Origin: Oscillospiraceae bacterium
Lineage (GTDB): Bacteria; Bacillota; Clostridia; Oscillospirales; Oscillospiraceae
DNA: 6,294 bases
Reading direction: 5' to 3'
Assembly (NCBI GenBank): GCA_031280855.1
Contig: JAITGH010000071.1
Location: 1-6,294, forward strand
Shown here: one piece after another, positions 3,961 to 6,294 of the stretch
Layout: each line of letters starts with the position of its first letter
How positions within the stretch are numbered: position 1 is the stretch's first letter
Program-made: the position numbers and the translations under genes
The notes under the pieces: model-generated
Databases searched by the model: none
Seen by the model: only the letters and a program-made list of their open reading frames with translations
Told to the model about the DNA's origin: nothing

Positions 3961-4460
3961 AGACGACGGTTACGGCGGTCGTCGCGACGGTTGTCGCGCT
4001 CCTGCTCGGGATCGGGTTCCGCTACACGTTCAAAGTCGCCAACGGCGGCGACTTCGAGACGAACGTCGTCGAGGATCTCCAGCTGAACATGTCGCACGCA
4101 CGCGATCTCTTCTTAGAGCATAATGAGACGTTCCAAACCATCGCGATGTACCTGTATGACAAGCCCGGCACGCGGTTCATGCGCGATTTCAGTTCCGAGG
4201 ACTTCGCCGACTATGACCCCGGAGACATCACAGACGAGCCGGAGTTCCAAATCGCACTTAATAAGGCGTTCGCCGCCGGCGACGACTCCGCAAGGCTTTT
4301 CAACATCGCGGCGACCACGAGGGGCGTGTACTTCTACACGAACTACTCCCGCACTTGCGTCGTCGGCTTCGTCCATGAGAACGTCATCGGCAACACCGAA
4401 GACTATGAAACGCTGGAGATTAACGAGAATTGGAAGCTCTTCTTCCGAACGTTCGAATAG
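3957..4460 (+). CDS. Membrane-anchored protein of unknown function between serS and rsmG
   Basis: A 167-residue protein I do not recognise. It begins with a short basic end and one hydrophobic helix (about residues 4-21, TVTAVVATVVALLLGIGF), with no following lipobox cysteine, so it is probably an N-terminal membrane anchor. The rest, about 140 residues, is acidic and soluble-looking and, by inference, outside the cytoplasm. It ends with an aromatic-rich stretch (GVYFYTNYSRTCVVGFVHEN, then NENWKLFFRTFE) holding the only cysteine. The GTG start overlaps the serS stop as GTGA, with GGAAG 7 nt upstream, so translation is likely coupled to serS. The end overlaps rsmG by 31 nt. In many Clostridia a membrane protein of the DUF4446 family sits near parB and serS, but I see no clear resemblance to it here. 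Confidence 0.85.
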   Translation: MKTTVTAVVATVVALLLGIGFRYTFKVANGGDFETNVVEDLQLNMSHARDLFLEHNETFQTIAMYLYDKPGTRFMRDFSSEDFADYDPGDITDEPEFQIALNKAFAAGDDSARLFNIAATTRGVYFYTNYSRTCVVGFVHENVIGNTEDYETLEINENWKLFFRTFE

Positions 4461-5239
4461 CCTTCGACGCGTACGCGGAGTTCCTTCGAAAGTCGAACGA
4501 GCGGCTCAACCTGACCGCCGTCCCGGACGCGGAGACGTACTCGCGCCACTTTGAGGACAGCCTCGCGCTGTTGCGATTCGCCGACTTCAAGGGTAAGCGC
4601 GTGATCGACATCGGCAGTGGAGCAGGATTCCCGGGAGTCCCGCTGAAACTCGCGGAGCCGTCCATCGCGCTCACGCTGGTTGATGCGTCGCGTAAGCGCG
4701 TCGAGTTTCTCCGTGAGCTTGCCGCGCTGTTGCGTATCGACGCGACTATCTTACACGCCCGCGCCGAGGAACTCGCACTGCCGGTAGGCAGGGTGCAGCG
4801 TGACGCTGCACCCACGTTAGACTTTGCAACTGACGGGCTAAGCGGTCAGCGTGACGCTGCACCCACGTTTGGTGCGGTGTCCTACGGAGAGAATCTCTCG
4901 TCCAACGCCCCCGACTCCTCACTCCCGAAACCTGACTCCTGCCGCGAGCACTACGACATCGCAGTCTCAAGGGCGGTCGCGAGAATGAGCGTGCTCGCGG
5001 AGCTGTGCCTCCCGTTCGTTCAAGTCGGCGGACTATTGCTCGCGCTCAAAGGCTCGAACGCGGACGCAGAGCTTGCCGACGCTGACGCGTTGATTGAGTC
5101 GCTCGGCGGCTCCGTCCAATCGTGCGAACGCTATGAGCGCGGAGCCGTTGTCGTCGTGCGCAAGCTTCGACCCACGGACTCGCGCTACCCTCGTACCTGG
5201 AAGCAAATCTCGAGAGGGTCACGAGAAGGTACGATTTGA
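4430..5239 (+). CDS. rsmG: 16S rRNA (guanine-527-N7)-methyltransferase RsmG, with an in-frame insertion
   Basis: Methylates N7 of G527 in 16S rRNA using SAM; loss in other bacteria gives low-level streptomycin resistance. The 269-residue product has NERLNLTA (23-30), the SAM site VIDIGSGAGFPGVPLKL (58-74), DASRKRVEFL (85-94), AVSRAVARMSVLAELCLP (178-195) and GGLLLALKG (200-208). Bacterial RsmG usually has about 11 residues between the RAE motif (111-113) and YDI (175-177). Here there are 61, so about 50 are extra, and they hold the peptide QRDAAPT twice (123-129, 140-146) encoded by an exact DNA repeat. The frame is closed by TAA at 4421-4423, so the TTG at 4430 is the only plausible start; the N-terminus is about 20 residues shorter than usual. 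The start lies within the preceding gene, with GGAG at 4415-4418. Confidence 0.93.
   Translation: MEALLPNVRIAFDAYAEFLRKSNERLNLTAVPDAETYSRHFEDSLALLRFADFKGKRVIDIGSGAGFPGVPLKLAEPSIALTLVDASRKRVEFLRELAALLRIDATILHARAEELALPVGRVQRDAAPTLDFATDGLSGQRDAAPTFGAVSYGENLSSNAPDSSLPKPDSCREHYDIAVSRAVARMSVLAELCLPFVQVGGLLLALKGSNADAELADADALIESLGGSVQSCERYERGAVVVVRKLRPTDSRYPRTWKQISRGSREGTI
4791..4869 (+). repeat. Palindromic direct repeat inserted in rsmG
   Basis: A 23-nt sequence beginning CAGCGTGACGCTGC occurs exactly at 4796-4818 and 4847-4869, spaced 51 nt (17 codons) apart. The first copy lies in a perfect hairpin: GGGTGCAGCG (4791-4800), loop TGA, CGCTGCACCC (4804-4813). The second keeps the CAGCG-TGA-CGCTG core, and a bulge allows GGT/ACC to pair as well. 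A third small hairpin, GAGAG-AAT-CTCTC, follows at 4887-4899. The repeat is read in the same frame both times and introduces no stop. Confidence 0.9.
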
Positions 5240-5624: not shown

Positions 5625-5680
5625 CGGGCAGACGACAGGGCGAGGAGACTCTCACTGCCGCAGGGACTAATATGGATCCG

Positions 5681-5704
5681 GCGTCACGCCGGGTGACGCT
5701 TTTT
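5681..5704 (+). terminator. Intrinsic terminator of the spoVM unit
   Basis: GCGTCAC (5681-5687), loop GCCGG, GTGACGC (5693-5699), then five T (5700-5704): a 7-bp GC-rich stem followed directly by a U tract. An alternative stem CCGGCG-TCA-CGCCGG overlaps its left side. Orientation and position fit the end of the plus-strand spoVM transcript. Confidence 0.88.
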
Positions 5705-5711
5705 CAGAATA

Positions 5712-5734
5712 TTGGGAGCCTTAAGGGCTCCCAA
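5712..5734. repeat. Perfect 9-bp hairpin without a T tract
   Basis: TTGGGAGCC (5712-5720), loop TTAAG, GGCTCCCAA (5726-5734). It starts 8 nt after the spoVM terminator. Neither strand has a T run next to the stem, so it is not a standard terminator. It may be an RNA-end stabiliser, a dispersed palindromic repeat or a protein site. Confidence 0.55.
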
Positions 5735-5767
5735 GATTCCCTCTGTGAAAGGTAGGGACGAAAATGT

Positions 5768-5801
5768 AAAAGTTTTTGTCAAACTTTTTTCAAAAAGTTT
5801 G
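5768..5801. terminator. A/T-rich double hairpin between convergent genes, probable bidirectional terminator
   Basis: Three related segments share one middle strand. AAAAGTTT (5768-5775) can pair with AAACTTTT (5781-5788) around a 5-nt loop. Alternatively CAAACTTTTT (5780-5789) can pair with AAAAAGTTTG (5792-5801) around a 2-nt centre. The two are mutually exclusive. The element lies about 40 nt after the ABC exporter stop (minus strand) and downstream of the spoVM terminator (plus strand), the right place for a shared transcription end. T runs are part of the stems, not a separate tail. Confidence 0.55.
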
Positions 5802-5814
5802 TCCCACGTAAACA
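5800..5814 (+). promoter_or_regulatory. parS-like site lacking one base
   Basis: TGTCCCACGTAAACA matches the parS variant TGTTCCACGTGAAACA in every position except one substitution (C for T at position 4) and one missing G after ACGT. Against the commoner TGTTTCACGTGAAACA there are two substitutions plus the missing base. It lies in the gap between the spoVM terminator and the ABC exporter, about 3 kb from parB. The deletion would change the half-site spacing that ParB reads, so activity is doubtful unless the missing base is a sequence error. Confidence 0.35.
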
Positions 5815-5842
5815 TATATACATTGTCAGAACCCTCGTAACC

Positions 5843-6294
5843 CTACTCGTACAGTCCGGTAGAGTACTGCACGTTATACAGCCGAGCGTACGCGCCGCCG
5901 GGGATCGCCATTAGCCGGTCATGAGTTCCGCTTTCCACGACCTCACCGTTATCCACGACCATGATCTTATCCGCGTTACGAATTGTCGAGAGTCTGTGAG
6001 CGATGACGAAGCTGGTGCGATCCTTCATGAGGTTCAGCATTGCCTCTTGGATTCGAAGCTCGGTTCGAGTATCCACGCTGCTTGTCGCCTCGTCAAGTAT
6101 AAGCACTTGCGGATCTGCGAGTATCGCTCTCGCGATTGCCAACAGCTGACGCTGACCTTGGCTGATATTGCCGCCGTCATCGCTCAGCACGGTATCGTAG
6201 CCTTTCGGGAGGTGCGAGATGAAGCCGTGAGCGTTCGCCATACGGGCGGCGCGTTCCACGTCTGCGTCGGAGGCGTTCAGCGCGCCGTACCGTA
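5843..6294 (-). CDS. ABC exporter, C-terminal part of the ATPase domain (cut by the window edge)
   Basis: The last 150 or so residues of an ABC transporter of the fused membrane-plus-ATPase type (multidrug or lipid exporter). The frame is open to the right edge, reading RYGALNASDADVERAAR before the GTG at 6259, so that GTG is internal and not a start. The visible part has the segment HGFISHLPKGYDTVLSDDG, the signature loop NISQGQRQ, Walker B VLILDEATSSVD with the catalytic glutamate, and the switch histidine in AHRLS. Walker A and the transmembrane domain lie outside. The SQGQRQ form of the signature is common among Firmicute exporters that work as heterodimers. The glutamate is present, so this half would have a complete catalytic site. 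Substrate cannot be told. It converges on the spoVM unit, and the stop TAG is at 5843-5845. Confidence 0.93.
   Translation of the reverse strand, partial: RYGALNASDADVERAARMANAHGFISHLPKGYDTVLSDDGGNISQGQRQLLAIARAILADPQVLILDEATSSVDTRTELRIQEAMLNLMKDRTSFVIAHRLSTIRNADKIMVVDNGEVVESGTHDRLMAIPGGAYARLYNVQYSTGLYE

Follow-up and report, generated by a model that had tools for sequence, protein, structure and literature searches.

How does an rRNA methyltransferase gene come to hold some 50 extra in-frame codons built on a repeated hairpin, what exactly entered it, and is the addition read into protein? The best-known cases of palindromic repeats read as part of genes come from Rickettsia and Wolbachia. 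The window analyzed here, a stretch of 6,294 nucleotides, is contig C146 of an Oscillospiraceae draft genome comprising 1,284,567 bases in 212 contigs and estimated to be 64% complete. Besides rsmG, it carries parA, parB, serS and a gene of 167 residues that has no Pfam family. In a comparison by SerS, the closest named drafts bear the labels Oscillospiraceae, Ruminococcaceae, Eubacteriales or Clostridia, the best identity being 71%. At 1-670 of the window, on the minus strand, there is a putative DNA cytosine methyltransferase-like frame, recognized by motif reading, which ends early near 62 and beyond that point seems to continue in another frame, an apparent frameshift.

The rsmG gene (4430..5239, plus strand) has 269 codons from a putative TTG start. 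Its product matches GidB (PF02527) with an E-value of 1.4e-43, with conserved residues of the domain on both sides of the insert; the best solved match, by sequence and by fold, is B. subtilis GidB (1xdz), and T. thermophilus RsmG comes second by fold. From the RAE motif to the conserved R that precedes YDIAVSRAVA there are 58 residues (residues 114-171; 4769..4942, plus strand), a loop that takes 8 residues in 48 of 66 aligned relatives, 6 in 14 and 4 in four, so that the net gain over the commonest length is 50 residues (150 nt). The earlier note on this DNA had put the figures at 61 against about 11; the extra length stands, but the count is 58 against 4-8, as both of its numbers include the next three residues. 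Among the 119 other homologues in a list of the best 120 of 4335, a motif expression finds a loop of 4 to 8 residues in 117 and of 15 in one, the remaining homologue (P0056) having failed to fit the expression. A match to rsmG is present in 50 of the 60 genomes searched, its own included, and residues 121-167 are covered by no match in the 49 others. Similarly, the stretches matched by four solved RsmG sequences end by residue 121, and the match to 1xdz resumes at 170. The extra residues, whose presence without repeat character in all close relatives had been proposed as a refutation of an insertion, are missing from the relatives examined, both the 66 aligned and the 49 genomes.

Outside the loop the protein looks ordinary. 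It retains every one of the 50 alignment columns with a conservation of 95% or more among the 66 relatives, and the frame is open and in phase across all 58 loop codons. Judged on sequence, the enzyme appears otherwise conserved and the loop tolerated. We therefore find it highly unlikely that an assembly error or a decaying gene has been mistaken for a tolerated insertion: both flanks are RsmG, joined in one open frame with the 50 strongly conserved positions intact, although repeats do break assemblies, the draft is fragmented and incomplete, and one of its contigs (C78) ends just past a copy of the repeat unit described below. The predicted structure, based on a 67-row alignment, has a mean pLDDT of 80.8, with 163 of 269 residues at 90 or more, and drops below 50 at residues 123-160, between a helix at 112-116 and a strand at 175-180. 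The extra residues are thus predicted to lie in a loop, as had been suggested, with a disordered portion at 123-160. The model predicts a disordered loop of about 50 residues, though the low pLDDT may partly arise because no aligned relative covers the loop. One tryptic peptide of the predicted loop is DAAPTLDFATDGLSGQR.

The insert could also be removed before it reaches the protein, by splicing or by ribosomes bypassing the hairpins. RNA from 4775-4945 is predicted to fold better than each of 200 shuffled sequences (z -3.1), which would suit such removal and, if the insert is translated, might hamper translation. However, removal would not require the 58 codons to be open and in phase, and the window contains no Rfam family at gathering score, the two matches found in 4700-5020 being sub-threshold (E 0.26 and 0.61). 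A known RNA element or intron in the insert was rejected on the same search, and we regard removal as hardly credible.

What, then, is the insert made of? The exact 23-nt direct repeat reported earlier lies at 4796-4818 and 4847-4869, with a spacing of 51, and the perfect hairpin at 4791..4813 (plus strand), which heads the first unit, is indeed an inverted repeat with a 10-bp stem; the small hairpin at 4887-4899 (GAGA-GAATC-TCTC) and an ACTCCT-rich stretch are present as well. The 23-nt repeat is real, but the repeating unit is 51 bp, and the tail, too, resembles spacer repeats. Unit 1 (4796..4846, plus strand) is read as QRDAAPTLDFATDGLSG; it is followed by the head of unit 2 (4847..4870, plus strand), consisting of the hairpin and ACCCACGTTT and read as QRDAAPT. 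RsmG uses the same frame, +1, for both copies, as had been proposed. After the second hairpin come GGTGCGGTGTCCTACGGAGAGAATCTCTCG and then the ACTCCT-rich tail. The second spacer module, TGGTGCGGTGTCCTACGGAGAGAATCTCTCG (4869..4900, plus strand), resembles C161:1878-1906 (86% over 29 nt) and C114:2001-2022, and the third, the ACTCCT-like tail (4901..4942, plus strand), resembles C172:982-1013 (84% over 32 nt) and a spacer on C205. In contigs chosen for holding unit copies, the two tail modules have 2 and 3 matches of at least 28 bits, compared with 0 both in five shuffled sets and for two stretches of host genes used as controls; their whole-genome E-values are 0.001 and 1.7e-4.

The C205 spacer shows its modules in the order of the insert: two units, GGAGGGAGACTCTCGCGCCC, then TCACTCCTAATTCC. 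When five copy loci were aligned to the insert, C205 scored highest (35.9, the others 18.0 to 28.7), and its tail aligns with a score of 17.8, where 1000 shuffles gave 14.9 at most, for a locus chosen after the flanks of all copies had been read. No donor identical to the insert was found, and C205 differs from it at many bases; we offer C205 as the kind of donor, not as the donor itself. As read from its parts, the rsmG insert is a composite of two units and two other spacer modules and not one palindromic element. The earlier idea of a palindromic element entering rsmG holds as regards a dispersed repeat, but the single palindrome gives way to a spacer composite.

The repeat is far from confined to rsmG, although its absence elsewhere in the genome had been named as a second possible refutation. 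Its 18-nt head, CAGCGTGACGCTGCACCC, occurs with at most two mismatches at 20 places in the whole draft, and a reversed control pattern occurs at 0. A search with a sequence model (R1), built from 19 copies including RsmG unit 1, gave 53 rows at E<=1, 47 of them at E<0.01; since it scored 150 of 1353 candidates, the count may leave out weak copies. Units spaced by 51 bp stand in tandem on several contigs, three in a row on C172, C132 and C154 and two on C183, C205 and C63; C104 has two units with a spacing of 52. The hairpin of the unit has a 6-bp stem at one end (10 bp in RsmG unit 1), and its six pairs hold in 39 to 46 of the 47 copies. The foot pair is CG in 29 copies and GC in 8, and is paired in 39 altogether; the next pair but one above it is GC in 23 and AT in 19, the other 5 copies having an AC mismatch. 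Such changes moderately support the idea that the hairpin is kept; the support is no stronger because the copies are related.

Most of the 47 copies lie outside any supported gene. Frames of at least 90 residues cover 87% of the 177,355 bases of the window and 26 fetched stretches, yet 27 copies lie clear of any such frame, against 20 that overlap one. Six of the latter fall within five genes supported by a Pfam family or a homologue: by Pfam, rsmG (two copies), an ISL3 transposase (C193), an AMP-binding ligase (C19:4436) and a creatinase-N peptidase cut by a contig end (C78), and by one homologue, a gene without a name on C159. The others that overlap frames are three on C172, in a 107-residue frame that was tried as a gene extended by the array and has no Pfam family; three on C154, where the frame on one strand has no family and an overlapping frame on the opposite strand lay outside the search; C19:4858 and C104:3718, which lie ahead of a Pfam domain or a likely start; and copies on C43, C63 (three) and C79 (two) in frames outside the family search. 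In addition, a weaker copy on C183 (E 0.04) ends an acetate kinase frame and supplies its stop.

The reading frames of the unit suggest why such inserts can be borne. Across the 51 nt, frame +1, the one that yields QRDAAPT in RsmG, stays open in 42 of 46 copies and the antisense frame -2 in 40; for the remaining four frames the counts are 7, 4, 8 and 19. If only the conserved 33 nt are considered, +1 is open in 44 copies, -2 in 45 and the others in 9, 5, 8 and 30, the last figure being that of -3, a third frame with many open copies. In supported genes, +1 is used three times (RsmG twice, C159) and -2 twice (C193, C19), which accounts for five of the six copies there. The copy on C78 is read in +2, where its usual TAG is TCG, and the C183 copy, likewise in +2, stops at its TAG. 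Because the unit is 17 codons long and has one mostly safe frame on each strand, both insertion and tandem growth would be survivable. Copies, stem pairs and frames together agree with the earlier description of a dispersed, hairpin-bearing repeat read in frame in a housekeeping gene.

Among the other hosts, the C193 transposase is, by alignment, a second clean insertion of 18 residues from a single unit: it shares 43% identity with the ISL3 transposase of Butyrivibrio fibrisolvens plasmid pNP243, and the alignment has an 18-residue gap that contains the unit. A second ISL3 copy (C166:2885-3371) is degenerate, with one in-frame TAG; it was considered as an empty site and set aside, since its pieces match only residues 16-105 and 177-253 and the site is missing. 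The C159 and C19 cases are weaker, with a small net gain over the nearest homologue in loops that vary. In the C19 ligase (L188:3381-4940) the loop ahead of the P-loop varies in length, and 3 of 38 relatives (P0150, P0154, P0159) have longer loops of other sequence, as if this were a common insertion site. A second record of the C159 protein (P0241, from a 1501-base contig) has an identical insert and one other residue changed.

It might be argued that the RsmG loop is a selected adaptation, for example an RNA-binding arm, and not a tolerated passenger. Nothing direct speaks for this, beyond a position between conserved motifs and a content of basic and acidic residues, and we consider it very improbable: the same peptide motif is read in the unrelated C159 gene, the loop sequence is that of spacer repeats, and the loop is predicted to be disordered.

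The distribution of the family among other genomes bears on when and how the copies spread. Five congeners have 7, 1, 1, 0 and 0 weak matches at E<=0.1, and under stricter filters 100 other genomes of the family yield one match, at 1e-4, in one genome. We do not take these weak congener matches for old copies, since the hairpin head but not the ACATTAG tail is present at the loci that were read, namely 7 of the 9 congener matches and the single match from the 100 family genomes. The repeat family has thus expanded in this species or very near to it, given such weak or absent matches in its relatives. The number of copies, their lack in relatives and the presence of some of them within genes all point to a dispersal of the unit. 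The description of the repeat as a mobile element rests on the first two of these; neither a transposase nor a target duplication nor an empty-site strain came to light, the last among the genomes compared. Phage carriage was rejected, as the exact unit-head pattern occurs in 0 viral contigs.

The main rival to copying from spacers is transposition by another enzyme, in which a single 51-bp unit moved into rsmG as a non-autonomous element with a transposase acting in trans, doubled in place, and acquired its tail by later insertions. Arrays spaced by 51 bp are common in the genome, and the ISL3 transposase gene holds just such a single unit. The evidence from rsmG itself points the other way. 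The longest direct repeat flanking the insert is CTGCCG, whose 6-nt copies lie 161 nt apart, not a multiple of three, and this out-of-phase repeat speaks against a target duplication; furthermore, the tail after unit 2 follows the module order of C205. A search for the Y1 transposase (RAYT, PF01797), which covers that one family, found it in 0 of 6 congeneric genomes, including the 64% complete genome itself, and in 5 of 14 named genomes searched as a control, a result that speaks against a mover of the RAYT type. We hold transposition of a single unit to be possible but rather unlikely. Just 5' of the insert there is a host palindrome, CTGCC-GGTA-GGCAG, at 4778-4791. Host palindromes as landing sites were considered and rejected: they occur in 3 of 7 windows (30 nt upstream of in-gene or gene-edge copies) against 11% at random, a small and post hoc sample.

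We consider it likely, instead, that the insert consists largely of spacer modules in the order seen in C205, copied in after the split from the sampled relatives and predicted to be translated as a disordered loop. The copying step may most plausibly have been hairpin-assisted template switching or ectopic recombination between repeat-rich spacers, which we favor, tentatively, in view of the mosaic make-up of the insert and the failure to see either a target duplication or a transposase that would fit. As the 51-bp unit is a multiple of three with one mostly stop-free frame per strand, an in-phase copy or tandem pair would be read through. Copies out of phase, or within a core element of the protein, would be purged, leaving most in spacers and few in tolerant loops, a distribution that is itself observed.

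How does this family compare with known systems? Rickettsia palindromic elements (RPEs) are described as short hairpin repeats with an open frame that lie in spacers and also, read in phase with the host gene, within conserved protein genes (PMC2229807, PMC10969869), and as elements of 105-146 bp with terminal inverted repeats (PMC2229807). The present family, with 47 places and 6 copies in 5 supported genes, is similarly distributed between spacers and in-frame positions. It differs, by a comparison of descriptions, in its 51-bp unit with the hairpin at the head and without terminal inverted repeats, in its tandem arrays, in its clostridial host, and in having entered together with other spacer modules. 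The earlier Rickettsia-like reading is therefore largely borne out (dispersed, with a hairpin, in frame) but for what entered, a spacer composite. As described in PMC3733652, GTAG/CGTC REPs are short palindromes that populate many spacers and also occur in some genes; inside genes, over half of the inserts are dimers or groups that encode 20-30 residues, and clusters encode 43-82. The stem found here lies within the 5-13 bp of GTAG-type REPs, with the six pairs holding in most copies, but by inspection the aligned copies have no GTAG/CGTC tag at the hairpin foot, and no RAYT was found in the six genomes, one of them 64% complete. According to PMC10969869, MITEs (ERIC, RUP, Correia/NEMIS and others) are short, non-autonomous repeats with open frames that are able to fuse with genes. 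Unlike them, our unit lacks terminal inverted repeats; at the rsmG insert the only flanking direct repeat is 6 nt long and out of phase. RPEs and intragenic REPs are thus the nearest kinds: the unit appears to work like them, and does not match RPE length and terminal repeats or REP tags. The words Firmicutes and Clostridi- are absent from the main text of PMC3733652, and the literature reached by our search held no report of such repeats in Oscillospiraceae or Clostridia.

A separate, species-restricted clostridial family would mean that this trait arises again elsewhere. We lean somewhat against the broadest form of the proposal, that a palindromic repeat able to code for protein, phased in threes and with one nearly stop-free frame per strand, has evolved separately in a lineage of clostridia, its spacer composites being copied into essential genes and translated as a live route to new loops, but it is worth stating. 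That a 51-bp unit leaves one frame on each strand mostly open is a concrete and countable reason for inserts to be survivable. How far enzymes tolerate loops born of repeats can be tested directly on the five copy-bearing genes, one of which encodes a conserved rRNA methyltransferase that has gained 50 residues in a loop. The window also contains a further copy of the unit head 3' of rsmG (5660..5693, minus strand; E 1.2e-8), outside frames of at least 90 residues. There, in the spacer at 5640-5850, the minus-strand copy is accompanied by a GGGAGCCTTAAGGGCTCCC hairpin and a CAAACTTTTTTCAAAAAGTTTG palindrome, and pieces like these two are found again beside many unit copies on other contigs.
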